Assembly: GCA_031292455.1 (NCBI GenBank)
Contig: JARLHC010000155.1
Coordinates: forward strand, 1-64,000
Reading direction: 5' to 3'
DNA length: 64,000 nucleotides
DNA from: Ignavibacteriaceae bacterium
Lineage (GTDB): Bacteria > Bacteroidota > Ignavibacteria > Ignavibacteriales > Ignavibacteriaceae
Shown: piece by piece, positions 6,847 to 44,866 of the stretch
How positions within the stretch are numbered: the stretch's first letter is position 1
Layout: each line of letters opens with the position of its first letter
Program-made: the position numbers and the translations under genes
Notes under the pieces: generated by a model
What the model saw: only the letters and a program-made list of their open reading frames with translations
What the model was told of the DNA's origin: nothing
Databases searched by the model: none

Positions 6847-8010
6847 ATGACAGATATTTTCGATATAATAGTTGTCGGAGCAGGACCTGCCGGATCAATG
6901 GCTGCCAGATTTGCTGCAGAGCAAGGTGTTTCTGTCCTGATGCTTGAAAAGGACAGGGATGTTGGTTATCCTGTCAGATGCGGAGAAGCTATAAGTAAAA
7001 AAGGAGTTGAGGAGTTTATCCCTTTGGATGAAAAATGGATCTCTTCAAAAATCAGTAAATTCTCATTGAATTCTCCTGATGGAACTGAAGTAGTGATTGA
7101 GTTTAATGATTCAGGATTTATCCTGGAAAGAAGGATATTCGATTATGAATTAGCGAAAACTGCTGCTAATGCCGGAGCTCTTATTCTTACCCGTGCTTAT
7201 GTAAACGGACTTCTTTTTGATGACAATAGAGTTTCCGGTGTAAAATATGAATTCCGTGGAGAACAGAAAGAGGCAAGAGCTAAAATAGTAATAGGTGCAG
7301 ATGGTGTTGAATCAAGAATCGGCCGTTGGGCAGGGATAGAAACTTTTACTGATTTTCGTGATATGGAATGCTGTGTACAGGTTACTGCTTCAAATATTAA
7401 AATAGATCCCGGCACACTATATTTTTATTTCGGAAAAAATGTTGCTCCCGGCGGTTATTTCTGGGTTTTCCCCAAAGCGGGTTGTTCTGCAAATATTGGT
7501 TTGGGTATAAGTGGTTATGAAGGGAAAAAAAAATCAGCACTTTCCTATTTGAATGATTTTATGGAAAAGAATTATCCTGAAGTTCCTGTATTAACCTCTA
7601 TAGCCGGTGGCGTTCCAAGCATCCCTACATTAAAAAAAATATCCGCCCCGGGGATTCTATTGGCCGGTGATGCTGGTCGTCAGGTCAATCCTTTAAGCGG
7701 TGGTGGTATCGCAAGTGGTATGATCGGTGGCAGTATTGCCGGTAGAATTGCCGGCGAATCTATTAAGTTGAATAAACCTGATCATATTTTGACATATGAT
7801 AATGAATGGTATGAAAGGATTGGAAAACGGCATGAGATTTATAATAGGTTAAAAAATGGTGTTTATAACTTTGACGATGAAAGATTTAATAAAATCGCTA
7901 AATCTTTTTCAAATGTGTCAGCAGATAAACGTTCATTAGGAAAATTATTTGCTATTGCACTTGTTAACCATCCCTTGTTATTGATCGATATTATGAAAGT
8001 TTTTATCTAA
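6847..8010 (+). CDS. Geranylgeranyl reductase family FAD-dependent oxidoreductase
   Basis: A 387-residue flavoprotein of the p-hydroxybenzoate-hydroxylase fold. Visible motifs are the N-terminal dinucleotide fold GAGPAGSMAA, the CGEAIS segment, the FAD-contact GDAGRQVNPLSGGG, and YFWVFP followed by eight residues and GLG. That last one matches the YxWxFPx7-8GxG motif of isoprenoid-saturating reductases and is the strongest evidence. Likely substrates are polyprenyl chains such as menaquinone side chains or prenyl diphosphates. The specific substrate cannot be read from sequence. Coupled with the ferredoxin upstream. Confidence 0.88.
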   Translation: MTDIFDIIVVGAGPAGSMAARFAAEQGVSVLMLEKDRDVGYPVRCGEAISKKGVEEFIPLDEKWISSKISKFSLNSPDGTEVVIEFNDSGFILERRIFDYELAKTAANAGALILTRAYVNGLLFDDNRVSGVKYEFRGEQKEARAKIVIGADGVESRIGRWAGIETFTDFRDMECCVQVTASNIKIDPGTLYFYFGKNVAPGGYFWVFPKAGCSANIGLGISGYEGKKKSALSYLNDFMEKNYPEVPVLTSIAGGVPSIPTLKKISAPGILLAGDAGRQVNPLSGGGIASGMIGGSIAGRIAGESIKLNKPDHILTYDNEWYERIGKRHEIYNRLKNGVYNFDDERFNKIAKSFSNVSADKRSLGKLFAIALVNHPLLLIDIMKVFI

Positions 8011-8072
8011 ATCTGTTTCTTTTTTATTATGTTATATATATATATTAAATTAAATCATTTCTAATCTTAGGT

Positions 8073-9581
8073 ATGATAAAAGATACAAATAAAGGCGCAT
8101 TAAATAATTTGGAAGCGGATTTTTTGTCGTCTTTTATTAAAAAAACTGATTCCCTCTCTATCTGGAAAGCCTCAGTTAAGGATATAAATATAAAAGAGTT
8201 TTCTGAAAATATTCTGAAAATAACAGGCTATTCTTCAAAAGATATTTTAAATATCTCTGACGGGTTTTATGCTCTTATCCATCCCGATGATCTCTTAAAA
8301 ATAAAAAAATCATATAAAAGGTTTATAAACAATCCGGGAGAAGAGGAATTATCTGTTATTTACAGGATAATTAATAAGGATCAGAATATTGTTTGGATCA
8401 AAGAAGAGATAAGAGGACAAAAAGATATAACCGGGAAAATAGAATCATATATAGGGGTGATACAGAATATCAGTGAGTTTAAAAAAGCTGAATCAACATT
8501 GCTGACGGATAATGAAAAACTGCTTCAGCTTAATAAATCCAAGGATAAGTTCCTTTCCATTCTTTCTCATGACCTTCGTGCTCCTTTTACAAGCATTCTC
8601 GGCTTCACAGAAATCCTGATGAATGAACCTGACCTTACAATAAATGAAAAAAATGAATATCTGAATTATATTCATGAATCTGCTCAGAACCAGCTTCAAT
8701 TAATTAATTACCTGCTTGACTGGACAAGACTGCAGACAGGGCGCATGAAAATTGAACCCGAACGAATACATGCCCAGACTTTAGTATTTAATTGCATTGC
8801 CTCTCTTACAGGTAATGCAATCAGAAAAAATATTGATATTAAAGCGAGTCTGCCGGATAATTTATTTATACAGGCCGATGAAAGGTTAATTACCCAGGTT
8901 GTTACGAATTTGTTAAGTAATGCGATTAAATATTCACGTGAGAATAAACATATCGAAATAAGCGCTGAAATTTTTAATGATGAAAAAGTTGAATTCATAG
9001 TTAAAGACCAGGGAATTGGGATTCTTGATATTTATAAAGAAAAGTTGTTTAGAGTCGATAAAAAGTTTTCAACCGAGGGCACTAAGGGAGAAAAAGGAAC
9101 AGGACTTGGCCTCAGCCTAGTAAAAGAAATAGTTGAGAAACATAATGGTGACATCTGGTTTTATACAGAAGTAGATGCAGGAAGTGAATTTCATTTTACT
9201 CTTCCTTCATCACAGAATTCTATTCTTCTTGTTGAGGATAATCCGGAAGATAAATTATTTTTAGAGAAAATAATTTCAGAGAATTTCCCGGAATTTAAAT
9301 TGATTGTTACTGATAATGGATATGAAGCTATAACCATTATGACTAGTAAAATCCCTTCCTTAATAGTTACTAAACACGACATTCCTTTCATGGATGGGAT
9401 ACAATTACTGAAATCAATAAGAAAAGGGGAGAAAGGATATAAGGTTCCTGTTATAGCTATAATCCCAGATGTCCCTGAAGAAACAATAAAATTATATCAT
9501 GAATATGGTATAAATGCTCTTCTGCAAAAACCTATCGACATAAAAAAGTTTAAGGAAAATTTATATTCTGCCTTAAATTAG
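8073..9581 (+). CDS. PAS-domain hybrid histidine kinase with degenerate C-terminal receiver
   Basis: The order is a PAS fold with PAC tail (about residues 35-138), HisKA with phospho-acceptor H166 in LSHDLRAPF, and HATPase_c with N-box NLLSNAIKYS, VKDQGIGI and GTGLGLSL. A receiver-like domain from about residue 382 opens with LLVEDNPED. There are no membrane segments, so it is a soluble sensor. In the receiver, the position four residues before the PxMDG proline, where the phosphorylated Asp normally sits, is K434 (sequence TKHDIPFMDG). The conserved lysine near the end is present in LLQKPID. It is a stand-alone gene with no separate response regulator next to it. Confidence 0.9.
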   Translation: MIKDTNKGALNNLEADFLSSFIKKTDSLSIWKASVKDINIKEFSENILKITGYSSKDILNISDGFYALIHPDDLLKIKKSYKRFINNPGEEELSVIYRIINKDQNIVWIKEEIRGQKDITGKIESYIGVIQNISEFKKAESTLLTDNEKLLQLNKSKDKFLSILSHDLRAPFTSILGFTEILMNEPDLTINEKNEYLNYIHESAQNQLQLINYLLDWTRLQTGRMKIEPERIHAQTLVFNCIASLTGNAIRKNIDIKASLPDNLFIQADERLITQVVTNLLSNAIKYSRENKHIEISAEIFNDEKVEFIVKDQGIGILDIYKEKLFRVDKKFSTEGTKGEKGTGLGLSLVKEIVEKHNGDIWFYTEVDAGSEFHFTLPSSQNSILLVEDNPEDKLFLEKIISENFPEFKLIVTDNGYEAITIMTSKIPSLIVTKHDIPFMDGIQLLKSIRKGEKGYKVPVIAIIPDVPEETIKLYHEYGINALLQKPIDIKKFKENLYSALN

Positions 9582-27865: not shown

Positions 27866-28066
27866 TTATCCTATGTATACCCTTGTCTGATAAAATGCCA
27901 TAACAGGGCATACATCCTTACAATACCCACAAAGAGTACACCATGTGGGTTCTACATGGAAAACGCCATCATTTCCATAATATATCGCCTGTGTGGGACA
28001 GCTTGGATAACATGCTCCGCAAGTTATACATAAATCCCCATATATTGCCATTGTATCTTTCCACAT
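27866..28066 (-). CDS. Small 2[4Fe-4S] ferredoxin-like protein (first of a trio)
   Basis: 66 residues with two complete motifs, C13-x2-C16-x2-C19-x3-C23-P and C43-x2-C46-x2-C49-x3-C53-P, each followed by a small hydrophobic run. GGAGG lies four bases before the ATG, which fixes the start. It has its own terminator. It shares the layout CxxCGxCxxxCPxxAI[YF] and an aromatic C-terminal tail with the 81-aa and 78-aa proteins nearby, so the three are probably paralogues. Electron carrier is the default reading. Confidence 0.88.
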   Translation of the reverse strand: MWKDTMAIYGDLCITCGACYPSCPTQAIYYGNDGVFHVEPTWCTLCGYCKDVCPVMAFYQTRVYIG

Positions 28067-28746
28067 AATACCTCCGTATTTTGATTTATAAATTAGACCA
28101 ATTAGTTAACAACTCAACATAAATTAATTGAATGTAATTGAAAAGAAAAAAAATGTAATCTGATATCAACATGATAAGATAAAATGTAATCTGATATCAA
28201 CGTGACAAGAGAAGAAGATGTTTGTCCCGCCCCAAATTGACCACCAAAATTTAATAACAGATAACTACCATCTTCACATTAAGTAAAATATTTTATAACC
28301 GGGAAGAAAGGAAATTTAGGTGATTACTATTGCGCAAAAAATCCATTCATATCTTATGTATAATTTTGCATCCCACATCTGGATTATAAGCAGGTTGCTG
28401 CCAGTTTACATTATTTATATTGCCGTACAAGTTTAAATAAATTATATTCGGGGGTGATTCGCGTCAGAGGAATATTTATATATTTTATAGAGTGATAATA
28501 TCCCTCAAACAATAGTAACTCTACAATTTCAAGTATATTATCAGAAATGGTTAGTCAGTGCAACATAACAGGAGAGGCTATCTGTAAGTTTCCAAATAAC
28601 CTTCTTCATTATAGAAAATAAACCGATGGTATTAAGTTTATAAGAGTTAATTAAATGTTTAATATGCCCCACAATAACATTCACTATCTCTGTAATAAAT
28701 TAATAATAAATACATTAACGAATTCCAAATTTAAGGAGTAAAAATT
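28067..28746. other. Divergent 680-bp spacer between two ferredoxin-like genes
   Basis: Contains a 31-bp tandem duplication (28151-28212) and otherwise AT-rich sequence with no convincing ORF or RNA gene. Long for this compact genome, so it probably holds promoters for both divergent genes and possibly decayed sequence around 28220-28450. Confidence 0.55.
28151..28212. repeat. Two tandem copies of a 31-bp unit carrying a TGATATCA palindrome
   Basis: Copies at 28151-28181 and 28182-28212 differ at three positions. Each contains the 8-bp palindrome TGATATCA. They lie 85-146 bp upstream of the 66-aa ferredoxin start, a position suited to a paired operator or an activator site. The period of about three helical turns would place both palindromes on the same DNA face. 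Confidence 0.7.
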
Positions 28747-28992
28747 ATGCCTAATTCAAAATCAAGTATACTTGACTCCCAAACCGACGGTATGGTTTGG
28801 AGAGCATACATTAGTCAGGAAGATTGTATCTCGTGTGGTGCTTGTGTATCCCATTGTCCGAATGGTGCAATTTACCTATGGAATGATAAATATAGTGTTG
28901 ATACAGGCACGTGTCATTTTGTTCAAAGCTGTTTCTCTTCATGCCCTGCAGATGCTATATATCCGATTCAGGTTCCCTGGAATAGCATATAA
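28747..28992 (+). CDS. Ferredoxin-like protein with an incomplete second cluster motif (second of the trio)
   Basis: 81 residues. AAGGAG precedes the ATG. The first motif is complete (C27-x2-C30-x2-C33-x3-C37-P). The second has only three cysteines, C56-x5-C62-x3-C66-P, so one expected ligand is missing and the two clusters cannot both be ordinary [4Fe-4S]. A 26-residue hydrophilic N-terminal extension precedes the first cysteine. The ABC exporter follows after 95 nt on the same strand. No signal peptide. Confidence 0.85.
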   Translation: MPNSKSSILDSQTDGMVWRAYISQEDCISCGACVSHCPNGAIYLWNDKYSVDTGTCHFVQSCFSSCPADAIYPIQVPWNSI

Positions 28993-29102
28993 TTATTAAA
29001 ATTAAATTCTGATATCGAATATTGATTAGTTAAAGTGGGGCAATTTTATTTACTAATCTAAAAAGAGTATATTTTCAGTAAAGTAATTTGAAATACTATA
29101 AT

Positions 29103-30818
29103 ATGCCTGACTCTGCACGTAAAAAAAATATTAAATTCTATAAGCAACTTCTTACCTTTTTCAAATATCTGAAACCGTATTGGTTAGAAATAGGTATTTC
29201 ATATTTAATGTCCTTTCTCTCCAATGGCGTCAATCTGATTATTCCTCTCGTTATGATGGCCCTTATCGATTCATTAAAAAAAGGAATGAGTATAAATGTA
29301 TTACTGCTTCTGATCCTTTTCTATATAACAATATCCTTATTCTCTATAATTATCCAGTACCTGGAGCAATTGTTAAATCAATATTGTTCCGGTTTCATAA
29401 TCCTTAATATAAAGAATGATCTGTATAAGCATGTACTGGATTTACCGATGTGGTATTTCACTAAAGAAACACCGGCCCAGCTCTTAAATAAAATAAATAA
29501 CGATACCGGCGCTTTTGCAATCTTCATAAATGGTACTCTGAAAAAATATATTATTAACGTTTTTAATGTCGTTGCTATATTATATATAGCCCGGAATATA
29601 GGAACGGAATACCTTTTAATTGTTGTCATATCTACAATACTTTTCTATATAGTTACTCTGAGGTTCTCCAAATACCAGAGAAATATAGAAAAAACAAATT
29701 CTCAAACCAGAGGGAATATATTTAATATACTCCTGGAAGCGATAGGCAGCATTGACATTGTAAAAGCTTATTTAACCGAAGATTTTGAGAGAAATAAATT
29801 TTACAATGCTTCAATTGGACAAATAAATATTGGATTGAATTCCCTGCGTATCCGTTTCAAAAGAATGGCTATTAACCAGGTGGTTGATTTGTTCCTTTTT
29901 GCATTTATCTATGGCTATGGAGGATACCAGGTCATCATTGGCAAAATTACGATAGGGGGTCTAATAGCTATAAATCAGTATACCCAGCAATTAAGATCCG
30001 GTTTAAGTTCATTCGGTTCACAATATGAAGGATTAGCTGCAGCTCTTGGCCAGTTGGAACGGGTTATAGATATTTTTAATATAGTCCCCGAAACCAGGTT
30101 AAATGCTGATGGTAAATACAAACCTGTATCCTGTAAAGGTAATGTTGTTTTTGATAATGTATCGTTTAGTTATGAAAAAGATGAAATTATTTTGGAAAAA
30201 GCTTCTTTTGAAATCAACCCGGGCGAAAAAGTACTATTTGTAGGAAATTCGGGAATCGGGAAAACAACTGTTATTAAATTACTCCTAAGATATTATAAAC
30301 CGGATTCCGGTACTATTTATGTCGATAAATATGATATCAGTACATTGGATATCAGCGCATATAGGGGAGAATTTGGAGTTGTTTTACAGGAAATGAAATT
30401 GTTTTCAGGTACAATAAGAGACAATATTATTTATGGATGTAATGATATTTCCGAGGAAAAGATAATCAATGCTACTAAAATGGCACAGATACATGAATTT
30501 ATAGATTCACTCCCGGATAAATATGAGACAAAGGTAAATGCTAATTTTGCTGAACTTAGCGGTGGTCAGAAGCAGAGAATGTTCCTTGCCAGAGCTATTC
30601 TGAAGAATCCTACTATTTTAATCTTTGATGAGGCTTTCAATTCCTTGGATAGTAAGACAGATATTGCCATAAAGGAATCTTTAAATACTGTCTTTGCAGA
30701 TACTACCTGCATTATTATCGCGCATGACAAGAATTCATATAATTATGTGGATAAAATTTATTTAATAGAGAACAAATTAGTTACACCCCTTAATAATTTG
30801 GAATTAATAAAACTATGA
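29103..30818 (+). CDS. ABC exporter (fused membrane and ATPase domains)
   Basis: About 571 residues from the ATG at 29103 (open from a TTG at 29088). Six membrane helices occupy roughly the first 310 residues. The ATPase follows, with Walker A GNSGIGKTT, signature LSGGQKQRM, Walker B ILIFDEAFNSLDS and the H-loop IIAHD. Type IV/MsbA-like half transporter with no N-terminal C39 peptidase domain. A 60-aa membrane protein overlaps its stop. Its substrate is unknown; the closest same-strand candidate is the ferredoxin-like product upstream. Confidence 0.92.
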   Translation: MPDSARKKNIKFYKQLLTFFKYLKPYWLEIGISYLMSFLSNGVNLIIPLVMMALIDSLKKGMSINVLLLLILFYITISLFSIIIQYLEQLLNQYCSGFIILNIKNDLYKHVLDLPMWYFTKETPAQLLNKINNDTGAFAIFINGTLKKYIINVFNVVAILYIARNIGTEYLLIVVISTILFYIVTLRFSKYQRNIEKTNSQTRGNIFNILLEAIGSIDIVKAYLTEDFERNKFYNASIGQINIGLNSLRIRFKRMAINQVVDLFLFAFIYGYGGYQVIIGKITIGGLIAINQYTQQLRSGLSSFGSQYEGLAAALGQLERVIDIFNIVPETRLNADGKYKPVSCKGNVVFDNVSFSYEKDEIILEKASFEINPGEKVLFVGNSGIGKTTVIKLLLRYYKPDSGTIYVDKYDISTLDISAYRGEFGVVLQEMKLFSGTIRDNIIYGCNDISEEKIINATKMAQIHEFIDSLPDKYETKVNANFAELSGGQKQRMFLARAILKNPTILIFDEAFNSLDSKTDIAIKESLNTVFADTTCIIIAHDKNSYNYVDKIYLIENKLVTPLNNLELIKL

Positions 30819-30997
30819 TCAATGAAGATAAGTTAAAAACTTATAATAATATATTACTAAGTAACCGGAAATTATTAATAGTATTTATCGTTATATTATT
30901 ATTAGCCATGGGCGCCGTCTTATATGTATTATTATTTGTAATTAAATTTAATAACAATGAAATATTGTATAATTATATTTTCAAACATAAAAAATAA
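30815..30997 (+). CDS. 60-aa single-helix membrane protein coupled to the ABC exporter
   Basis: The ATG overlaps the exporter stop in an ATGA junction, a strong sign of translational coupling. One long helix at about residues 20-44, with a polar N-terminus and a basic Asn-rich tail. Could be an accessory subunit of the exporter or the cytoplasmic anchor of an adaptor. No family recognised. Confidence 0.65.
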   Translation: MINEDKLKTYNNILLSNRKLLIVFIVILLLAMGAVLYVLLFVIKFNNNEILYNYIFKHKK

Positions 30998-31047
30998 ATT
31001 GTACCCGCCGTTGTCATCCATCTGATTGCTCATGTCACTCCCTTAAC

Positions 31048-33507
31048 TTAGAAATCATCAGGTAGTTCAGTATCATTTTGCTCTTTTTCCAGTGCATCGG
31101 CAGCTTTAATCTGGAAATAGTAGGCTAATTCAAGAGATATTATTCTTGTTGTTTGTTTAATATTGTTTATCATATTAAAGCCTGTTCCAAATCTGCTGGA
31201 ATTATTGTTTTTAGTGTTAAATAAATCTACTGCTCTCAGGGTCAAGGATAACTGTTTGTCTAACAGTAACAATTTTGCCGCTGCATTAGCATAGAATGAT
31301 GCCTTTGATTTCTGCTGAGCATCACTGGAAGGGGACATATAGTTTAATTCCATCTGAAATTTGAAATTGTTAAAAGATAACCTGGAACGTATGTTACTAT
31401 TCCAGGATTTGGATTCAGAACTGACCCCGGGGCTCTTATATTTGCTGATATCCCCTGAAATACTTGGTTCAATTTCAAACCATTCTGCTAATTTATCCCG
31501 GAAGTAAACTCCTGCACCATATGTATTAATGCTGGATAAATTTTCATATGAGGTTTCTAAAACCTGCGGGCTGATGACCGATGTTACAGTCTCAATTGCA
31601 TTTCCCTCATTCTGATAATAAATATTAGTACTTCCCCAAAAATCTCCTTTAGCCATGTTATAACTCATCGATAATATATACCGGCTGAATGGTTTTAATT
31701 CAGGGTTTCCAGCAACAATATTGGTGGAGTCAGAATAATCGACGTAAGGGCTTAATTGCTTATTGAAGGGGTATTGAGTTAAGCGCCAATAATTAATCCC
31801 TATGTTCTGACCATCGGCTACCTCTTTTGTCAGACTTATTTTGGGATCAAGATTAGTAAACTTGTTCTGGTAAGAATTGCCGGCGATTTTATTCTCAGTG
31901 GAGGTATACTTATGGTTCGTTTTTAAACCGAGCTCATATCTAATATCATAAAGAGAACCGCTAAGACCGAATGAGATATTCTGATTTAAGTCGTTGTATT
32001 CCTGTGTTACTTTTCTTTTTATATCCTCATTATATATCAACAGGGCTGGATCAAGATAATAGTAATCATCATCCATGGATAATTTTGTATAATTTCCATT
32101 ATAACCTATAAATAGATTTATTAACTCATTAACCTGCTTCTTGTAATTAGCTCCCCAGCTAACATTATTATTTGAATTTCCCGATGTGTTGTGTGCATTA
32201 ATAGATGACCCGTTATTTAATGATTCTAAAGAAGATGTCCGGTTTTCAATTATATCATTTTCAAGGTTCATATGATTATTGGAAAATAGAAAAGCAGCAC
32301 CTAGGCTATTACCTTTTCCTTTAAATAGCTTATTATAGCTAATCCCTTCAGTAAAAAATTTATGAAGTGTTTTTGTATTACTTATGTCCTGGTAACCATC
32401 AATTTGTAAATCGCTATTATTTGTATAAATGTTGGAATTATTTTGCTGATTTTGAATATACCCGTCCCTGTACATCGTGTTAGTAGATAAAAGGTCAGAT
32501 TTATCAAAATTGAATGAAATATTAAAATTCGCCGCATTACCATTAGATTGATTGACAGATTTCCCTGATTGATTCAGATAACTAATTGAATCTGCTAAAA
32601 CCACCTGCCGTGTTTGGTTGTTATCAGAGTTATTCTTAGAATAATAATTGTTATAGTTGCTCCTGAAACTGACATCACTTAGATTATATCCGCTCCCAAG
32701 TGTTCCCTCATACAAATTATTTGTGTTTAGTTTTGTACTGACATTACCATTGTATTTAGTGGTTTTGATCTTTTTAGTAATAATATTTATAACGCCCCCT
32801 CCCGTATTTTCACCATACTCAATTGAAGGATTTACAATAAGTTCAAACTTGTCAATATCAAATACCGAAAGAAGCTTCAGATCATCATTACTCATAATTC
32901 CGGAGAATTTTGCCGGGTTCCCATCTATGTAAATTACCGTTCCTGACTTTCCTAAAAGACTTATAGTTCCCGTTTCAATATCAATATCTACCATAGGCGT
33001 ATTTTCCAATAGATCCAATGCATTATTTCCCCAATCTTTATCAGGATTTATAATAATCTTATTCTTATCATCTTTGTCATATACAATTCTATTTTTGTCT
33101 CCTAATATTTGTATCTCATTAAACGTAATACCCTTAGGCATAAGTAAAACTGTATCTAATCTGATTTCCGGCACTCTGGCATTGAGGCTCATATTTTTTC
33201 TTGTACGTGATTTATATCCAATTATTGATATCCTGCCATTATATAAACCGAAAGGGATATCTGATAACTTAAACTTTCCTGCTTTATCGGATACAGTTCC
33301 ATATGCAACTGATGTGTCTCTGGCAGAGGTGAGGATAAAATTAGCCATTTCAATCGGCATCTTTGTCTGGGCATCTAATAATATACCACTTATCGCCCCT
33401 TTTGAATTATTATTTTGTCGTTGTTGTGGATTGATAGGTATTATAAAAACTAAAATTAAACCAAAAATCAATAATTTAATTACTAATCGAACCTTTATTA
33501 TAGTCAT
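31048..33507 (-). CDS. Outer-membrane beta-barrel protein of the TonB-dependent-receptor type
   Basis: 819 residues. A signal segment is followed by a carboxypeptidase-regulatory-like beta-sandwich (about 35-120), then a plug-like domain (about 140-245, with GGGVINIITKKIK at its end), then a large Asn/Ser/Tyr-rich barrel. This is the layout of the OMP_b-brl_3 group, which resembles SusC/TonB receptors but often lacks a clear TonB box. It lies between the ABC exporter and the third ferredoxin-like gene. Ligand unknown. Confidence 0.87.
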   Translation of the reverse strand: MTIIKVRLVIKLLIFGLILVFIIPINPQQRQNNNSKGAISGILLDAQTKMPIEMANFILTSARDTSVAYGTVSDKAGKFKLSDIPFGLYNGRISIIGYKSRTRKNMSLNARVPEIRLDTVLLMPKGITFNEIQILGDKNRIVYDKDDKNKIIINPDKDWGNNALDLLENTPMVDIDIETGTISLLGKSGTVIYIDGNPAKFSGIMSNDDLKLLSVFDIDKFELIVNPSIEYGENTGGGVINIITKKIKTTKYNGNVSTKLNTNNLYEGTLGSGYNLSDVSFRSNYNNYYSKNNSDNNQTRQVVLADSISYLNQSGKSVNQSNGNAANFNISFNFDKSDLLSTNTMYRDGYIQNQQNNSNIYTNNSDLQIDGYQDISNTKTLHKFFTEGISYNKLFKGKGNSLGAAFLFSNNHMNLENDIIENRTSSLESLNNGSSINAHNTSGNSNNNVSWGANYKKQVNELINLFIGYNGNYTKLSMDDDYYYLDPALLIYNEDIKRKVTQEYNDLNQNISFGLSGSLYDIRYELGLKTNHKYTSTENKIAGNSYQNKFTNLDPKISLTKEVADGQNIGINYWRLTQYPFNKQLSPYVDYSDSTNIVAGNPELKPFSRYILSMSYNMAKGDFWGSTNIYYQNEGNAIETVTSVISPQVLETSYENLSSINTYGAGVYFRDKLAEWFEIEPSISGDISKYKSPGVSSESKSWNSNIRSRLSFNNFKFQMELNYMSPSSDAQQKSKASFYANAAAKLLLLDKQLSLTLRAVDLFNTKNNNSSRFGTGFNMINNIKQTTRIISLELAYYFQIKAADALEKEQNDTELPDDF

Positions 33508-33597
33508 TACTTACAATTATCCCTGAGGCAGACTATTATTAATAATATTTCTCCACTTGTCAAATCATTATATAATTGTTATTAACGTGTTACGATC

Positions 33598-33834
33598 TTA
33601 ATAAGGAACCCACTCAAAACTGGAAACCGGACAAACCTGCATGCATATTGCCGGATCACCGCATGCAGCATCTGTAAGGCAAAGATCATGGTCTACCTGA
33701 GGATGGTCGTTCATCTTACCGGGAAAGATAGCATAGCCGGGGCATACTTCAAGGCAAGTGCCACAACTGACACAATCATCTGTTATATGGGCTACTCGCA
33801 ATTCCTTAACCTGTTTTTGATTTGAGTCAATCAT
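33598..33834 (-). CDS. Ferredoxin-like protein with stretched second cluster motif (third of the trio)
   Basis: 78 residues. The first motif is standard (C21-x2-C24-x2-C27-x3-C31-P). The second is expanded to C52-x5-C58-x5-C64-x3-C68-P, keeping four cysteines. The C-terminus FEWVPY is aromatic, like the other two members. It lies upstream of the beta-barrel gene on the same strand (90-nt gap), so the two may be co-transcribed. No export signal. Confidence 0.85.
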   Translation of the reverse strand: MIDSNQKQVKELRVAHITDDCVSCGTCLEVCPGYAIFPGKMNDHPQVDHDLCLTDAACGDPAICMQVCPVSSFEWVPY

Positions 33835-33963
33835 AATTACTCCTAAAGGTTATATTGATAATAATAATGATTTAAGTTTGAATTGAATAATGTATGACAA
33901 AGTGGAGAAATCAAATTTATTAGTTATGCAGTAATGATCGGTAAAGTCAGGCATATCTTTGGA

Positions 33964-34269
33964 TTATGGGGTAACTTTCATTTTATCAATCATTTTATTG
34001 ACAAGCTCTCTGTCTTCACCGGTCAATTCATGGCAGGATAAACAGATATCATTATCAAGGACTGGTTCATTTAATAAGAATGGAAGGTTTGTATTTGTAA
34101 TTTTGCATATTGTTATAAGCAAACTTGTTGAAGGTGAGGCTTTATTATTTTCAAGCTGAGAATAATATTCTCTGCTTATTCCTAAGATTGATGCGACTTC
34201 CTTTTGATATAATTTATTTCTATTTCTATATAACTTAAGAATATTCCCGACGTTCAATTCTTCATTCAT
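33964..34269 (-). CDS. XRE-family helix-turn-helix regulator with a cysteine cluster
   Basis: 101 residues. The HTH spans about residues 10-65 (YQKEVASILGISREYYSQLE). The short C-terminal part contains C76-x2-C79-H80, and C55 lies in the HTH domain. Those cysteines could bind an Fe-S cluster, haem or zinc, or act as a thiol switch. It is upstream of the third ferredoxin-like gene and divergent from the second barrel operon, so it may control either. Confidence 0.85.
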   Translation of the reverse strand: MNEELNVGNILKLYRNRNKLYQKEVASILGISREYYSQLENNKASPSTSLLITICKITNTNLPFLLNEPVLDNDICLSCHELTGEDRELVNKMIDKMKVTP

Positions 34270-34467
34270 TATATTATTCTCCTAATAGAATAAAATGTAA
34301 AAATTATAGAAGAAAATGAGAAAGAGGATAAGTTCAACCTATATATATAATACTACACAAAAAATAAAGAAAAGTACTATTGCTTAGAATTAAATGGCCG
34401 CATGGTTTTTTCAACATTATCGTCTCAATACATAGAACTAAAATATTTACTCATAACTAAGTCCCTT

Positions 34468-37242
34468 ATGAAATACCTGATATTGTTATTTTTTATGCTC
34501 GTTCAGACAGTTTATTCTCAGAACGTTCATATTACCGGTAAAATAGTTGATTCTAAAAGCAATGCTTTTCTGCCTTCCGCTAATATTATTTTATATCATC
34601 TGCCCGATTCAACAGTAAAAGGAACAACCTCTGATAGTAAAGGCCTCTTTTATCTAAATAATGTTAAACCAGGCAGGTATTTATTAAGCGTAAAATTCAT
34701 TGGATATCAGACGTTTAATAAGGATTTAACTGTTTCTAATAAGTCAATCAATATCGGCAATATTAAATTAATTCCGGAGGAAATGGAACTAGAAGAAGTG
34801 CTGGTAATTGATAAAGTACCTGTGGCTGTTCAAAGTGGCGATACCACAGTCTTTAATGCTGATGCTTTTAAGGTGAATAAGGATGCCGTTGCTCAGGATC
34901 TTCTGCTTAAAATTCCCGGGGTTCAGGTTGAGAATGGAAAGGTTAAAGCCCAGGGAGAAGAAGTTAAGAAAGTCTATGTGGATGGAAAAACATTCTTTGG
35001 CGACGATCCGGATATGGCTTTGAAAAACATTCCCGCCGATATAATTCAGAAAGTGCAGGTCTTTGATCAGCAAAGCGATCAGTCACAGTTCTCCGGATTT
35101 AACGATGGTACAACTACCAAAGCCATAAATCTAATAACGCGATTAAATATTTCAAAAGGAGCTTTCGGTAAACTTCAGGCCGGTTATGGTTCTGAACAAA
35201 GATATAACGCCGGCGGTGATGTTAACCTGTTCAATGAAAATCAAAGGATCAGCGTCATAGGGCAGTCTAATAATACTAATGAACAGAATTTTTCCAGTAT
35301 GGATATGCTGGGTGTTATGGGTGGTCAGCAGCCGGGAGGAGGATCAGGCCCAATGGGCGGGGAGATGGGTAAACCGGCTTCGGGGAGCAATTCTTCAAAT
35401 CTTGTTAATTCCGGGAATGGAAATACTGTCGTTAAAGCCCTGGGCTTTAATTATAACAATAGCTTTAATAATGATATGGAGATTGACGGGAGTTATTTTT
35501 ATAATAAAACAGATAATAACCTGATAGGACTTCTTAATAGGAACTATTTCCTTTCATCTCTTAACGGACAAAATTATTATGAGAATAACCTGTCTCAATC
35601 GGGAAATACTAACCATAGAGTAAATCTTAGATTCGATTATAATTTAGATTCCCTTAATGAAATAAGATTCATTCCCGACTTATCCATTCAGAAAAATATT
35701 TCTAATACTTCAATGGATGCATCTACTTTTAACTCGGGAAATATGGTTAATTCCACTAAAACTTTAACTGCAACGGATTTAAATGGATTAAGTAATTCTT
35801 CACTTCTTATGTACAGGCATAAATTTAATAATTCAGGAAGATCTGTCTCTTTGGGCATAAATACCTCGTACACCAGATCTCAGGGAAACGAACAGCAGTT
35901 ATCCGAAAACGCTTATTATAATTCAATCGTCAGAATAGATTCGATTAATCAATTAACAAATATCAATAATAATAGTCTTACCGTAGGTGCAAATTTAACT
36001 TATACCGAACCTATAAATTCATACCACTCTTTAATGATAAATGCAGGACATTCGGTAACACACGAGAGTAATGATAAAAAAACATTTGGATATAGTTCTT
36101 TGGAAACTGCTTATTCATTAATGGATAGTTCTCTTAGCAATGAATATGATAAAGATTATATTACCAATTCTCTTGGAGTAGGTTACAGGTATCAGCGTAA
36201 TAAGATATCTTTTAATGCTAACCTTAATTATAACCTGGCCTCTTTAACCAGTGAACAGGTTTACCCTGAGAAATATCAGATAGACAGGAAATTTAATTCT
36301 CTCCTTCCATCAATTATTTTTAGGTATAATATATCCCGGAACAAGAACCTTAACTTCTTCTATAGGACATCAAATACCGCTCCATCAGTTACTCAATTGC
36401 AGAATATTCTGGATAATTCTAATCCGTTGCAGTTATCCGTTGGGAATCCTGATCTGAAACAGGAATACGACCACTTTGCGGCTATGAGATACTCTTCTAT
36501 AAATTTTTCAAATATGCATACTTTCTTTATCATGATCAGCGGTTCTTATAAAAATAATTACCTGGGATCAAATACAATTATTGCCGGAAGGGATACAACT
36601 TTATTTAACGGAATATTTCTCAATAAGGGGAGCCAGTTGTCAACTCCGCAGAATGTTAACGGGTATATCAGTGCCCAGACTTTTATGACCTACGGGCTTC
36701 CGGTAGATTTGATCAGTTCAAATATAAATTTGAATCTCTCCGGTAACTATACCCGCACCCCCGGCATATTGAATAATATAAGCAATTATTCAAATTCATT
36801 CAGCTATGGATTGGGAGCAGTTATCAGCAGCAATATCAGCTCGGATATCGATTTTCTTATTTCAAGTACAACTAAAGATAATATCGTGAAGAATAGTAAA
36901 TCAACGGAGAATAATGAACAGTATTTAAGTCAGCTTACCAGCTTAAAATTAACCTGGCTCCTGTTTAATGAGTTCAACGTGCAGGGAGAATTGACTCATA
37001 AATACGATGGGGGACTGACCAGTGGATACTCTCCTAATACATATTTACTGAATCTTAGTTTCGGTGCAAAGTTCTTTTCCGATAATCGCGCTGAATTAAA
37101 GATAACAGCTTATGACATGTTGAATCAGAATACTAATGTGTCACGGCTGTCAACCGATAACTATTCACAGGAGTATAGCACTAATGTTATCGGAAGGTAC
37201 TATTTACTTTCATTCGTTTATAATCTTAGGTTATTTTCTTAA
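34468..37242 (+). CDS. Outer-membrane beta-barrel protein of the TonB-dependent-receptor type
   Basis: 924 residues from the ATG at 34468, which begins a clean signal peptide ending VYSQ. The frame is open 22 codons further upstream. A carboxypeptidase-regulatory-like domain (about 26-105) precedes a plug domain (KAQGEEVKKVYVDGKTFFGDDP) and a long barrel. A Met/Gly/Pro-rich loop lies at about residues 275-305 and resembles the tail of the next gene's product. Different from the 31-kb barrel in loops and plug. First gene of a two-gene operon closed by a terminator. Confidence 0.87.
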   Translation: MKYLILLFFMLVQTVYSQNVHITGKIVDSKSNAFLPSANIILYHLPDSTVKGTTSDSKGLFYLNNVKPGRYLLSVKFIGYQTFNKDLTVSNKSINIGNIKLIPEEMELEEVLVIDKVPVAVQSGDTTVFNADAFKVNKDAVAQDLLLKIPGVQVENGKVKAQGEEVKKVYVDGKTFFGDDPDMALKNIPADIIQKVQVFDQQSDQSQFSGFNDGTTTKAINLITRLNISKGAFGKLQAGYGSEQRYNAGGDVNLFNENQRISVIGQSNNTNEQNFSSMDMLGVMGGQQPGGGSGPMGGEMGKPASGSNSSNLVNSGNGNTVVKALGFNYNNSFNNDMEIDGSYFYNKTDNNLIGLLNRNYFLSSLNGQNYYENNLSQSGNTNHRVNLRFDYNLDSLNEIRFIPDLSIQKNISNTSMDASTFNSGNMVNSTKTLTATDLNGLSNSSLLMYRHKFNNSGRSVSLGINTSYTRSQGNEQQLSENAYYNSIVRIDSINQLTNINNNSLTVGANLTYTEPINSYHSLMINAGHSVTHESNDKKTFGYSSLETAYSLMDSSLSNEYDKDYITNSLGVGYRYQRNKISFNANLNYNLASLTSEQVYPEKYQIDRKFNSLLPSIIFRYNISRNKNLNFFYRTSNTAPSVTQLQNILDNSNPLQLSVGNPDLKQEYDHFAAMRYSSINFSNMHTFFIMISGSYKNNYLGSNTIIAGRDTTLFNGIFLNKGSQLSTPQNVNGYISAQTFMTYGLPVDLISSNINLNLSGNYTRTPGILNNISNYSNSFSYGLGAVISSNISSDIDFLISSTTKDNIVKNSKSTENNEQYLSQLTSLKLTWLLFNEFNVQGELTHKYDGGLTSGYSPNTYLLNLSFGAKFFSDNRAELKITAYDMLNQNTNVSRLSTDNYSQEYSTNVIGRYYLLSFVYNLRLFS

Positions 37243-37262
37243 TAATATTCAAGGAGAATAAT

Positions 37263-38153
37263 ATGCGTAAACACGGGTATCTTAAATTGTTGTTTCTGCT
37301 TACAGGATTTCTATTTACCGCCTGTTCAGGTTCACAGCTTGTAACATCACAACAAAACACAGGCGAAATAAAAATAGATGGAAACTCTTCTGAATGGAAA
37401 CAGCTTACAAATATGAAAGGTGAAAATATATCGTTCGGATTTAGTAATGATGCGGATAATTTATATCTGATTATGATTACTAATGACAGGAATAAGATAA
37501 TGAAGATATTACTCGGAGGTCTGAAGGTATGGATCGATCCGGGAAATTCAGATGATAAAATTGGAATAAAATATCCCGATAGCCCTGAGCCGGCAGATAT
37601 GATGGAGCAAATGAAAAATCAAAGAATGCAGGATCAGCCCGGTATGGATAATAAAAACTTCGGGGATAAGCCAGAGAATAACGAATTGGATCCTGCTATG
37701 AAAATATTCCTTTCCCAGCAGAAAGATCTATATGTGATAAATGATGATGATAAAGTGCTGAAGTCATTCCCTATAAATGGCAGTTCGTATCAAGCCAGCT
37801 TTAAAGTAGATAGAAGCAGTTTATGTTATGAACTGAAGATCCCCTTTGGCCATAAACCGCTGTTAAATTATGTTCCTAAAAATAATTCTGTTGATAAAAT
37901 ATCAGTTAGTTTTATATCAGGTGAGCTTAAATTACCGAATGATCCAATGCAAAGACCGGATGGAATGGGGGGGAATGGTATGCCTCCATCGGGAGGACCT
38001 TCGATGGGAGGTGGACCGGGTGGTGGAGGTCCTCCATCTGGGGGTGGACCTGGCGGTGGTGGTCCTGGAGGAGGAGGCCCCGGTGGTCCCAACCAATCTA
38101 AACAATCAAATGTGCCGATTGATTATTCTTTTGAAGTTATTATGAACAAATAA
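37263..38153 (+). CDS. Lipoprotein with Met-rich middle and Gly/Pro-rich C-terminal region
   Basis: 296 residues. A signal ends at FTAC (C21, a slightly irregular lipobox). The start of the mature part (IKIDGNSSEW) looks like a CBM9/DOMON-type beta-sandwich. Residues 110-130 are rich in Met and Gln. Residues 225-285 are almost entirely Gly, Pro, Met and Ser in GG and GGP repeats. AAGGAG precedes the ATG. It follows the barrel gene by 20 nt, and a shared Met/Gly-rich composition suggests that they work together at the surface. Confidence 0.75.
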   Translation: MRKHGYLKLLFLLTGFLFTACSGSQLVTSQQNTGEIKIDGNSSEWKQLTNMKGENISFGFSNDADNLYLIMITNDRNKIMKILLGGLKVWIDPGNSDDKIGIKYPDSPEPADMMEQMKNQRMQDQPGMDNKNFGDKPENNELDPAMKIFLSQQKDLYVINDDDKVLKSFPINGSSYQASFKVDRSSLCYELKIPFGHKPLLNYVPKNNSVDKISVSFISGELKLPNDPMQRPDGMGGNGMPPSGGPSMGGGPGGGGPPSGGGPGGGGPGGGGPGGPNQSKQSNVPIDYSFEVIMNK

Positions 38154-38177
38154 AATATTTGGCTCTATCTCTCCTAT

Positions 38178-38208
38178 AACCTCGCATTAGGTTGATTAAT
38201 GTGAGGTT
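38178..38208 (+). terminator. Intrinsic terminator after the barrel-lipoprotein operon
   Basis: Twelve-pair stem AACCTCGCATTA / TAATGTGAGGTT with one G-T pair and a 7-nt loop, followed by a T-run. It separates the barrel-lipoprotein genes from the sigma factor operon. Confidence 0.78.
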
Positions 38209-38299
38209 TTTTATTTAACATACAGTTTCCTATTGAAATGACGCATGTTTCTGTAAAAATAAACGTCCAATTTATTATAAGAATCAATATTTTAGGTGT

Positions 38300-38878
38300 A
38301 TGCAGGAAGCTGAATTAATCAACAGACTAAAACAAAAAGATGAGGATGCCTTTAGGATAATTTTTAATGATAATCAGAAAAAAATACTAAATGTCTGTTA
38401 CCGGTTGGTAAATGATGAAGATGCGGCTCAGGATTTGACGCAAGAGGTCTTTATTAAAGTTTGGTCTTCAATTAACCAATTCAGAAATGAGTCTAAATTA
38501 TCAACATGGATATACAGAATTGCGGTTACCGGATCATTGGATTATTTGCGTGCACAGAAAAGGAAAAAGAGATTGGCAGTTTTTAATTATTTCTCCGGAG
38601 GAGGAGAAAAACAATTTGAAATAAAAGCTCCAAATGATCAGGACCCACAGATGCTTATGGAAAACGCAGAAAGGTTTGAAGTATTGAATGATGCATTAAA
38701 TAAACTGCCTGAAAATCAGAGAGTTTCTTTTTTGTTAAGTAAGGATGATGAAATGAGTGCTAAGGAAATAGCCATGATTTTAAGTACTACTGTTTCTTCG
38801 GTTGAATCGTTGATTCACCGCGCTAAGAAAAATCTGGAAAGAATTTTATATAACTATTATAAAAAACAAATTGTATGA
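38300..38878 (+). CDS. ECF-type RNA polymerase sigma factor
   Basis: 192 residues with region 2 (DEDAAQDLTQEVFIKVWSS, TWIYRIA) and region 4 (LPENQRVSFLLSKDDEMSAKEIA), and no extra domain. Directs transcription of a small regulon. Its stop overlaps the start of the next gene in an ATGA, the normal arrangement of a sigma factor with its anti-sigma factor. Confidence 0.93.
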   Translation: MQEAELINRLKQKDEDAFRIIFNDNQKKILNVCYRLVNDEDAAQDLTQEVFIKVWSSINQFRNESKLSTWIYRIAVTGSLDYLRAQKRKKRLAVFNYFSGGGEKQFEIKAPNDQDPQMLMENAERFEVLNDALNKLPENQRVSFLLSKDDEMSAKEIAMILSTTVSSVESLIHRAKKNLERILYNYYKKQIV

Positions 38879-39219
38879 AGAATGATCAAAAAATATCGGA
38901 CGATGTAAAGAAAACAATCTCTTTGCTCGATAACATCAAAAAAATTGAGCCGAATCCGTTTCTGTATACAAGAATAAAAGAAGGAATAGATTCCGCTAAC
39001 AATAAAAAATCTGTTTTATCAATTGATTTTGCCTTTACTCTCTTTAAACAGATTGTTTTTGCGGTATTGTTTCTTCTTAACATTTATTCCGTTATATCAT
39101 ATCTGAGTAATGGAAAGATGATTGGGCAATATCGTATGCAATATATTAAAAATGTTGTTTCCGAATATTCGATAAAAACTGAAAGCGATTATTTAACAAA
39201 TTATGTAAGTAAGGATTAG
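38875..39219 (+). CDS. Probable anti-sigma factor, single-pass membrane protein
   Basis: 114 residues: a cytoplasmic N-terminal half of about 50 residues, one helix at about 55-75 (IVFAVLFLLNIYSVISYL) and a short outer tail. No zinc-binding motif. Identified mainly by position: a 4-nt overlap with the ECF sigma factor and a 2-nt gap to the Spy-like gene. Confidence 0.68.
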   Translation: MKNDQKISDDVKKTISLLDNIKKIEPNPFLYTRIKEGIDSANNKKSVLSIDFAFTLFKQIVFAVLFLLNIYSVISYLSNGKMIGQYRMQYIKNVVSEYSIKTESDYLTNYVSKD

Positions 39220-39221
39220 AA

Positions 39222-39743
39222 ATGGACTGGCTTACTAAACAAAAAACTTATGTCCTGGTTATTATTTTATTAGTAGTAGTGAATATTACAACATTGATTT
39301 TATTGTGGACCGGCTTCCCCGGACCTCCTCCAATGGATAAAAATGGACATCCCGATACTAATAATTTTCTTAAGAATGAATTAGGATTGGATCAGCAGCA
39401 GCAGGAGAAATTTAATTTGCTTCGTCAGACTCTTTTTGATTCTATGGACTCTTTAAATAAGCAGTTATGGGCTAAAAAATTAGAAATTCAGGAACAGGCA
39501 TTTAAAGTAAATCCAGATACTCAGAAAGTAAACCGGCTTTTACAGGAGATAGCGGGGTATCAGATTCAAAACGAAAAGTTGATGTTCTATCATTTTACGG
39601 GGTTAAGGAATATCCTTTCAGCAGAGCAATTAGTTAAATTTAATAAAATATTAAACGGGCCTAATAAAAACGCACCCAGGCCGGGTGGTAAGCATAATCA
39701 TAATTCCCCTCCTCCCGGAGAGATCCCTCCACCCAGGCGTTAG
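39222..39743 (+). CDS. Membrane-anchored Spy/CpxP-like sensor protein
   Basis: 173 residues. An N-terminal helix (about 10-29) anchors an extracytoplasmic all-helical domain with two LTxxQ-like motifs (LGLDQQQQEKF and LSAEQLVKF). The tail is His/Pro-rich (GKHNHNSPPP). The family includes CpxP, Spy and metal sensors such as CnrX. Together with the sigma and anti-sigma genes it resembles CnrYXH-type signalling. AAGGA precedes the start. Confidence 0.8.
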   Translation: MDWLTKQKTYVLVIILLVVVNITTLILLWTGFPGPPPMDKNGHPDTNNFLKNELGLDQQQQEKFNLLRQTLFDSMDSLNKQLWAKKLEIQEQAFKVNPDTQKVNRLLQEIAGYQIQNEKLMFYHFTGLRNILSAEQLVKFNKILNGPNKNAPRPGGKHNHNSPPPGEIPPPRR

Positions 39744-42562: not shown

Positions 42563-44866
42563 ATGAAATTTTTTTTACTTCTTATATTATTACAATTTTT
42601 ACTTCTTTATAATATTGATGTACTAGCACAATGGGTGCAAACCAATGGACCATATGGTGGACAAGTTCGTTGTTTATTCGCAAGTGGAGATAATATTTAT
42701 GGAGTTATTGGGGTAACTGTTTTCCATTCAACGAACAATGGGATAAATTGGAGTCGTGTAAATAGCATACCGCATTTGACAGTTTCGACTATTGCTATTA
42801 GTGGGAATATTGTTATTGCCGGAACTGATTTTAATTCTGATTATTCCTCTGGAGTTTTTCTAACAACCGACAATGGAACAAACTGGAAACAAGTACTTAA
42901 TTCGGGTGGAGTTACAACTCTTTGTGTAAGCGATAGTATCATAATTGCAGGAACATCTAACTCAGGTATATACCTTTCAAGTGATTATGGTACAAATTGG
43001 ACTTCTGTAAATAATGGTCTTTCTACCCAAAGGATAAATTCTCTTGCTATTAGCGGAAGAAATATTTTTACAGCCACAAATGATGGTGTATTTATCTCTA
43101 CAAATTTTGGTGCATTATGGACTAAGGTTAATGATGGGCTTACTACTGATTTCATCTATTCATTTGCCGTAAGTGGAAACAATATTTATGCGGGTACAGC
43201 TCAAGGTGTATTCCTTTCGACAAATAATGGAACATTATGGATACCGGTAAGTGATGGCCTTACATCCAGTAGCATCATGACATTAGCAATTAGTGGAAAC
43301 AATATATTTGCGGGTAATGATGACGGCGTTTTTTTTACAACTAATAATGGAACAGCTTGGACACAAATAAATAATGGGCTCACTTACTACCATATTACTG
43401 ATCTTGTGATTAGCGGAAATAATATTATTGCAGGAACTTCTAATGACGGTATATACCTTTCAACGAATAACGGATCCAACTGGACGCAAAATAATAATGG
43501 TCTGAATAGCTCTCAAATTTATTCGCTTGCTCTTGCCGGAACTAATATCTTTGCAGGGACTGGGAGTGGAGTTTATCTCTCAACAAACAGTGGAGCAAAC
43601 TGGATTCCAGCAAATAATGGTCAGATTAATTTTACTTTTTCTCTATTAAGAAAAGCCGATACAATTTTTGCAGGGACATATGAAAATGGAATTTATCTTT
43701 CAACTAACAATGGAGCAACCTGGACGCAAACAAATATTGGGCTTACTGGACGTCTAGTTAATTGTTTTGCAGTAATGGGAGCCAATGTTTTTGCGGGTAC
43801 TGATGCAGGTGTATATCTTTCAACGAATAACGGGACAAATTGGACGCAAGTAAATAATGGATTAACTGATATTTCGGTCAGTTCTATAGCTATTGTTGGA
43901 ACAAATATTTTTGCAGGCACTAGTGGAGGTGTGTATCTTTCGACAAATAATGGAACAAGTTGGACGCAAGTAAATAATGGGTTAACTGATACTTTTGTAA
44001 ACAGTCTAACTACCAGTGGTACTAATATTTTTGCAGGTACATTAGAGGGGGTATTTCTTACAACCAATAATGGGACAAACTGGATTCTTGCTAATAATGG
44101 AATACCTATTAGAAATTTTGAGGTTCTTGCTACCGTTGGAAATAATATTTTCGCAAGTTCATATGTCTATTTATATCTTTCGACAAATGATGGAACAAGC
44201 TGGACACAGGTCAATAATGGTTTTCTATATATTACTGATATCGTTAGTAACGGAGTTGATATGTTTGTAGGAACTTATGAAGGTGTTTGGAAACGACCCC
44301 TTTCAGAAATTCTACCTGTTGAGTTTACTACTTTTACGACAAGCACTAATAATGGCATCGTGAGCTTAAATTGGAATACTGCAACTGAAACAAACAACAG
44401 AGGTTTCGAAATTCAGAGAAAATCTTCCACAAATGATTTTATATCTGTCGCTTTTATTAAGGGAAAGGGAACAAGTACCAATTCAAACAATTATTATTGG
44501 GCTGAAAGAGTGCAACCCGGGAAATATTCATACAGATTGAAACAAGTTGATTTTAATGGTAAATGTGAATATTCAAAAGAGGTTGAAGTTACAGTTAATC
44601 CCCATGATTTTAGTCTAGGGCAGAATTACCCTAATCCTTTCAATCCGAACACAGTAATATCCTATTCATTGCCAAAAGCTTCTAACATAAAGCTTATTGT
44701 ATATAATACAATAGGACAAGACGTAAAAGTTCTTGAGGATGGATTTAAGAATGCAGGTAATTATAACATTAACTTTAATGCATCCAATCTTCCCAGCGGA
44801 ATATATTTCTACCAATTGGATACAGGGCAGTATTCCCAGGTTAAAAAGATGATTTTACTTAAATAA
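42563..44866 (+). CDS. Large secreted repeat protein with degenerate Asp-box motifs and a T9SS sorting domain
   Basis: 767 residues. The signal peptide ends VLAQ. Residues 25 to about 585 are about 13 repeats of roughly 43 residues, each with a strand, a SGNNIFAGT-like turn and STNNGTNW. This is the BNR/Asp-box motif SxDxGxxW with Asp mostly replaced by Asn (true Asp in TTDNGTNW and SSDYGTNW). It is probably a beta-propeller or a pair of propellers. A linker beta-domain (about 590-680) and a T9SS sorting domain (about 690-767) follow. Similar proteins are surface-exposed; no catalytic function is indicated. Confidence 0.85.
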   Translation: MKFFLLLILLQFLLLYNIDVLAQWVQTNGPYGGQVRCLFASGDNIYGVIGVTVFHSTNNGINWSRVNSIPHLTVSTIAISGNIVIAGTDFNSDYSSGVFLTTDNGTNWKQVLNSGGVTTLCVSDSIIIAGTSNSGIYLSSDYGTNWTSVNNGLSTQRINSLAISGRNIFTATNDGVFISTNFGALWTKVNDGLTTDFIYSFAVSGNNIYAGTAQGVFLSTNNGTLWIPVSDGLTSSSIMTLAISGNNIFAGNDDGVFFTTNNGTAWTQINNGLTYYHITDLVISGNNIIAGTSNDGIYLSTNNGSNWTQNNNGLNSSQIYSLALAGTNIFAGTGSGVYLSTNSGANWIPANNGQINFTFSLLRKADTIFAGTYENGIYLSTNNGATWTQTNIGLTGRLVNCFAVMGANVFAGTDAGVYLSTNNGTNWTQVNNGLTDISVSSIAIVGTNIFAGTSGGVYLSTNNGTSWTQVNNGLTDTFVNSLTTSGTNIFAGTLEGVFLTTNNGTNWILANNGIPIRNFEVLATVGNNIFASSYVYLYLSTNDGTSWTQVNNGFLYITDIVSNGVDMFVGTYEGVWKRPLSEILPVEFTTFTTSTNNGIVSLNWNTATETNNRGFEIQRKSSTNDFISVAFIKGKGTSTNSNNYYWAERVQPGKYSYRLKQVDFNGKCEYSKEVEVTVNPHDFSLGQNYPNPFNPNTVISYSLPKASNIKLIVYNTIGQDVKVLEDGFKNAGNYNINFNASNLPSGIYFYQLDTGQYSQVKKMILLK
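44651..44866 (+). repeat. Sorting-domain DNA repeat, copy 2
   Basis: Partner of 41245-41460. See that entry. Confidence 0.85.

Follow-up and report, generated by a model that had tools for sequence, protein, structure and literature searches.

The window analysed here is a 64,000-nucleotide (nt) stretch from an Ignavibacteriaceae bacterium (contig JARLHC010000155.1, positions 1 to 64,000), in which three small ferredoxin-like proteins of 66, 81 and 78 amino acids (aa), named w66, w81 and w78, are encoded around an ATP-binding cassette (ABC) exporter and a TonB-type outer-membrane barrel (locus 1). Seven more small ferredoxin-like proteins are encoded elsewhere in this genome (locus 2; L039, on contig C137). 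For the resulting set of ten the sequences suggest, at what we judge to be an even chance, that dicluster ferredoxins of the cytosol have multiplied in this lineage under common regulation, in association with a TonB receptor and, at locus 1, also with an exporter. As a rule, small ferredoxins are house-keeping carriers and well conserved; the ten of this genome have diverged while retaining both a regulatory element of exact spacing and a partner receptor.

Ten ferredoxin-like proteins at two loci

An earlier note on this DNA had described the three open reading frames (ORFs; 66, 81 and 78 aa), the exporter, a 60-aa membrane ORF, the barrel and an XRE gene, all of which were recovered at the same coordinates. 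The small proteins of the window are:

27866..28066 (-): w66, dicluster ferredoxin-like, 66 aa, both Cys motifs canonical, sequence CITCGACYPSCPTQAIY
28747..28992 (+): w81, ferredoxin-like, 81 aa, nearest relative L039:4144-4377, sequence CISCGACVSHCPNGAIY
33598..33834 (-): w78, ferredoxin-like, 78 aa, directly upstream of the barrel gene, sequence CVSCGTCLEVCPGYAIF

The common layout that the note had assigned to the trio holds for the first motif, CxxCGxCxxxCPxxAI[YF], for the presence of a second Cys block and for a short aromatic tail (three of three), but not for the second block itself, which differs between the proteins. It is canonical in w66 (C-x2-C-x2-C-x3-CP), lacks one ligand, the middle Cys, in w81 (C-x5-C-x3-CP), and reads C-x5-C-x5-C-x3-CP in w78. 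Pfam Fer4-type models match all three proteins well over the cut-off, thus the Cys pattern is not a product of chance. From its motifs w81 is predicted to hold a [4Fe-4S] cluster plus a [3Fe-4S] or incomplete cluster. The AlphaFold model of w78 is of low confidence (pLDDT 58), with strands and helices in a ferredoxin-like order, and the fold search with it gave no significant match; the ferredoxin assignment therefore rests on sequence. The w78 gene is flanked by a 40-nt imperfect inverted repeat (70%; 33538-33577 and 33881-33920), with one arm just before the barrel gene and the other before the w78 gene.

A search with w81 as query matched a relative encoded on contig C137 of this genome (E 5.7e-9). 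The locus around it carries seven small ferredoxin-like ORFs on a single strand (L039:3541-3768, 4144-4377, 7144-7356, 7653-7844, 8038-8265, 8411-8638 and 8758-8982). With a family profile the ten ORFs of the two loci score 65-92 bits, and the other ferredoxins of the genome at most 38 bits. Because this profile was built from the same ten proteins that it scores, the independent evidence is the single-sequence search with w81, in which two other family members outrank the C70 ferredoxins of the genome.

Motif I, C-x2-C-x2-C-x3-C(P), is present in the three window proteins and in most proteins of locus 2, the exceptions being L039:7653-7844, where it ends C-x5-C, and L039:8758-8982, which has CQ in place of CP. 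Motif II is canonical (C-x2-C-x2-C-x3-CP or C-x2-C-x8-C-x3-CP) only in w66 and L039:7653, and non-canonical in the remaining eight (w81, w78 and six locus 2 proteins). In seven of the ten its first two Cys residues are separated by 3-5 residues (C-x3/4/5-C), and a variable loop precedes C-x3-CP. These altered cluster-II sites raise the question of a changed cluster type or redox potential. As in ordinary ferredoxins, seven of the ten have just 10-13 residues ahead of their first Cys, which leaves no room for a leader peptide. The family thus consists of small, leaderless and probably cytosolic proteins.

In their two Cys motifs, size, acidic charge and leaderless form the proteins resemble 2[4Fe-4S] dicluster ferredoxins of the YfhL / Allochromatium, Chlorobium and Clostridium type, and they give profile matches to solved structures such as 3eun and 1fdn. 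They differ from the small ferredoxins of the other genomes read, which are uniformly C-x2-C-x8-C-x3-C, in that the second motif is altered in eight members, and from ordinary dicluster ferredoxins in being multi-copy and having a common promoter box. In lacking the middle Cys of motif II w81 is like the 7Fe / [3Fe-4S] ferredoxins, but its spacing (C-x5-C-x3-CP) is unlike theirs.

Most pairs within the family are near 40% identical. The closest pair, L039:3541 and 8038, has a non-synonymous divergence (dN) of 0.25 and a synonymous divergence (dS) of 0.38; the corresponding values for L039:8411 and 8758 are 0.32 and 1.07, and for most other pairs dS is >1 or not computable. In the tree the 66-, 78- and 81-aa proteins have long branches, and w81 and L039:4144 are sisters (support 83/90). 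Since these two sisters also have a 15-nt leader element in common, the two loci are linked by descent.

A promoter box common to both loci

Seven transcription units, distributed over both loci, have the same promoter layout: a 22-bp box (GTTGNTNNNAGWTTACATTWTT) is followed after exactly 4 nt by a -35 hexamer and, 17-18 nt further on, by a -10 hexamer. The best -35 hexamer begins 4 nt past the box in all seven units, and the -10 hexamer is TATATT or a near form. The box was found via repeated words in the compared upstream regions. When one mismatch or none is allowed, the 3.36-Mb genome has nine copies: three belong to the window locus, five to C137, and one sits where contig C71 breaks off. 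In a whole-genome control with the reversed box at up to two mismatches there were no forward and two reverse matches, and the five C137 boxes exceeded all 200 shuffles. Within the window alone, three box matches at up to three mismatches are not remarkable (7 of 100 shuffles), thus the strength of the box lies in its genome-wide count and exact spacing. The elements located in the window are:

28149..28170 (-): box, proximal copy for w66, GTTGATATCAGATTACATTTTT
28180..28201 (-): box, distal copy for w66, one mismatch, in tandem with the proximal copy (31 bp start to start)
28394..28415 (+): box upstream of the w81 gene, GTTGCTGCCAGTTTACATTATT
28420..28448 (+): predicted sigma-70-type promoter for w81, TTGCCG-17-TATATT, 4 nt past the box, same layout at locus 2
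28666..28680 (+): 15-nt leader element GCCCCACAATAACAT, among the fetched loci common only to the w81 and L039:4144-4377 leaders

The predicted w66 promoter is weaker, but it has two tandem boxes. The ninth box (G000:C71:15509-15530; L307) stands 7 nt from the end of its contig; a continuation of C71 past it was looked for and not found, and the assembly thus lacks whatever this copy would control. Outside this genome, the 160 genomes of the order yielded three lone matches with one mismatch, approximately the rate of the reversed control. There was no box in IMG/VR, and a search of Rfam gave no match.

Barrel, exporter and regulator

The remaining features of the two loci are the following:

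31048..33507 (-): TonB-dependent-receptor-type outer-membrane barrel, OMP_b-brl_3, with N-terminal CarboxypepD_reg, plug and barrel
L039:4576-7023: barrel of locus 2, 815 aa, from ORF reading of C137
29088..30818 (+): MsbA/ABCB-type ABC exporter half-transporter, ABC_membrane and ABC_tran, start TTG 29088 or ATG 29103
30815..30997 (+): 60-aa protein with a single transmembrane segment, 4-nt overlap with the exporter's stop
33964..34269 (-): XRE regulator, 101 aa, with a C-terminal CxxC (CLSC), upstream of w78

The window barrel and the barrel of locus 2 are 40% identical over 795 residues, and at both loci the barrel gene is immediately preceded by a co-directional peptide gene. The model of the window barrel has a pLDDT of 79, and its top folds in the Protein Data Bank (PDB) are the TonB-dependent receptors Cir, ChuA, PhuR and FecA. 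The plug region gave profile matches to Cir, BtuB and PfeA, and FepA-type receptors were also matched by profile. Judged by profile and modelled fold, the window barrel is a TonB-dependent receptor with a carboxypeptidase-regulatory-like N-terminal domain. Its domain order, plug, barrel and fold match are those of other OMP_b-brl_3 receptors of this kind; unlike its relatives in the other genomes read, it has mini-ferredoxin neighbours. Of the 160 genomes of the order, 86 have a barrel of this subfamily. This genome itself has a third such barrel (G000:C142:16350-18785; L129:8348-10783), which adjoins sigma-factor-like and TonB-C-terminal-like ORFs and no mini-ferredoxins, and G071:C84 (L130:7034-12110) has a tandem pair of barrels, one of them 41% identical to the window barrel, without mini-ferredoxin neighbours.

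In bringing together a TonB-dependent receptor, a ferredoxin domain and transport genes, the arrangement resembles FusABCD / pectocin M (PMC5095587, PMC7593965, PMC11452297). It is unlike Fus, an importer of plant ferredoxin, in that the proteins here are bacterial-type and come from the same genome as the receptor. No FusC-like M16 protease or TonB-like FusB was noticed among the listed neighbours, which were judged by reading, with no dedicated profile search. A link between a bacterial-type ferredoxin and a TonB-dependent receptor of the same cell would bear on plant-ferredoxin import by Fus.

The exporter has just ABC_membrane and ABC_tran over the cut-off, and no peptidase C39 domain; it appears to be co-transcribed with w81. 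The 60-aa ORF matched no family over the cut-off. No homologue of the exporter was found at E<=1e-100 in the 160 genomes of the order or at E<=1e-80 in 396 genomes of the phylum, with few candidates per genome scored. A plasmid search returned two weak ferredoxin matches and distant exporters (about 30% identity), and PADLOC returned generic partial matches alone (ABC-ATPase, helix-turn-helix, Fe-S). The XRE protein is possibly the activator acting at the box. Three genomes of the family encode distant homologues of it in which the C-terminal CxxC is kept, and the 3-kb loci read around them contain no mini-ferredoxins.

The peptide profile was applied to the class (391 genomes) and to the phylum (396 genomes), with scoring limited to the top candidates of each genome, and the small matches read were ordinary C-x2-C-x8-C-x3-C ferredoxins. 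In a DNA-pattern scan of 85k species for the C-x4-C variant, the loci read among the matches listed gave longer Fe-S proteins and matches due to chance; none of them encoded a small C-x4-C protein. Since the peptide, box and exporter searches of related genomes gave, at the thresholds used, no relatives beyond ordinary ferredoxins, the set appears, as far as the sampling reaches, to be confined to this lineage. The parts are familiar, and their combination is found nowhere else among the genomes searched. Sampled relatives are without the peptides and the box, and the two loci offer a defined candidate regulon.

Interpretation, alternatives and surrounding genes

In a co-regulated expansion of cytosolic ferredoxins, the XRE protein with its CxxC, possibly the activator, would sense metal or redox state and switch the set on. 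The TonB receptor would import a ligand, perhaps with iron or another metal, the diverse ferredoxins would serve in the use of that ligand, either as electron carriers or as holders of Fe-S clusters, and the exporter of locus 1 would remove a small molecule. We infer all four of joint gene activation, cytosolic location, cluster binding and service to the receptor's cargo.

Several observations weigh against this interpretation. The earlier note had envisaged a single system of peptides, exporter, barrel and XRE gene, and had proposed recurrence as a check. The peptides do recur beside a barrel, at a second locus whose barrel is related, and the box is nearly confined to the two loci, both of which speak for a system of peptides and barrel; but the peptides do not recur beside an exporter or an XRE gene, both of which are missing from locus 2 (C137, 20 kb, read end to end). 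The w78/barrel unit has no box. In the tree the ten proteins do not resolve as one clade, and w66, w78 and L039:7653 group loosely with ordinary ferredoxins. No mini-ferredoxins were present in the loci read beside barrels in G071, G097, G159 and G160 or beside the C142 barrel of the window's own genome. Because neither the genome's own third barrel nor the closest foreign barrels have adjoining peptide genes, the barrel works without peptides in general.

The wide occurrence of the barrel subfamily without peptides would also suit an ordinary lineage-specific duplication of dicluster ferredoxins, whose neighbours, a common barrel of the Bacteroidota type and an unrelated exporter, would be there by chance and whose promoter was copied along. 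Each of the three components (ferredoxin, TonB-type barrel, MsbA-type exporter) is common, and a promoter would travel with a duplicated gene. We nevertheless consider this account rather unlikely. The geometry of box and promoter is exact while the proteins have fallen to about 40% identity, which points to selection on regulation, and the placement of a peptide gene directly upstream of the barrel gene is the same in both loci.

A metallophore- or bacteriocin-like role, in which Cys-rich or Fe-S mini-proteins are exported by the ABC transporter and the TonB-dependent barrel is their cognate receptor, would fit the arrays of diverging paralogues, the fairly high dN/dS of one recent pair (0.25/0.38), the altered cluster-II sites and the interleaving of peptide genes with exporter and receptor genes. 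There is precedent in FusA, a known TonB-dependent importer of plant ferredoxin (PMC5095587, PMC7593965), through which pectocin M1 enters via its ferredoxin domain (PMC11452297). However, most members have neither a leader nor room for one, the exporter is without a C39 peptidase, locus 2 is without an exporter, and barrels of the same subfamily exist without such peptides, which makes this role unlikely. A further count against export is the usual instability of 4Fe-4S proteins where oxygen is present. We consider it distinctly improbable that, under the control of a single switch, diversified Fe-S mini-ferredoxins are secreted by a dedicated ABC exporter and that they, or their metal, are taken back through TonB-dependent receptors of the same bacterium; if true, secretion and re-uptake would amount to a protein-based shuttle for iron or electrons, or to a ferredoxin-based weapon.

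For the redox-controlled export system that the earlier note had put forward, no direct evidence emerged. The note had also raised modified or exported peptides, a suggestion that is disfavoured by the lack of leader room in seven of the ten proteins and by the absence of any visible maturase around the two loci. On the same grounds (10-13 residues before the first Cys, no maturase at either locus) it is largely refuted that the peptides are precursors of RiPPs, ribosomally made and modified natural products. Such precursors would be expected to be encoded, as here, by short ORFs rich in Cys, in several copies and with an exporter nearby, but the leader is absent, and the ferredoxin motifs are complete and matched by Pfam Fer4 models, so that we regard this origin as highly improbable.

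Adjoining the ferredoxin/barrel locus, the window encodes a second OMP_b-brl_3 receptor (34402-37242), beyond which lie a 296-aa lipoprotein-like ORF, an extracytoplasmic function (ECF)-type sigma factor (38300-38878) and a small putative anti-sigma ORF; a Metal_resist/LTXXQ protein is encoded at 39222-39743. The region 34402-39743 is likely a metal- or envelope-stress operon. BNR/sortilin-like repeat proteins are encoded near both loci, at 42563-44866 of the window (with a type IX secretion tail) and at L039:2131-3183, and a gene for a C_GCAxxG_C_C redox-active protein (L039:10562-10999) lies near locus 2.

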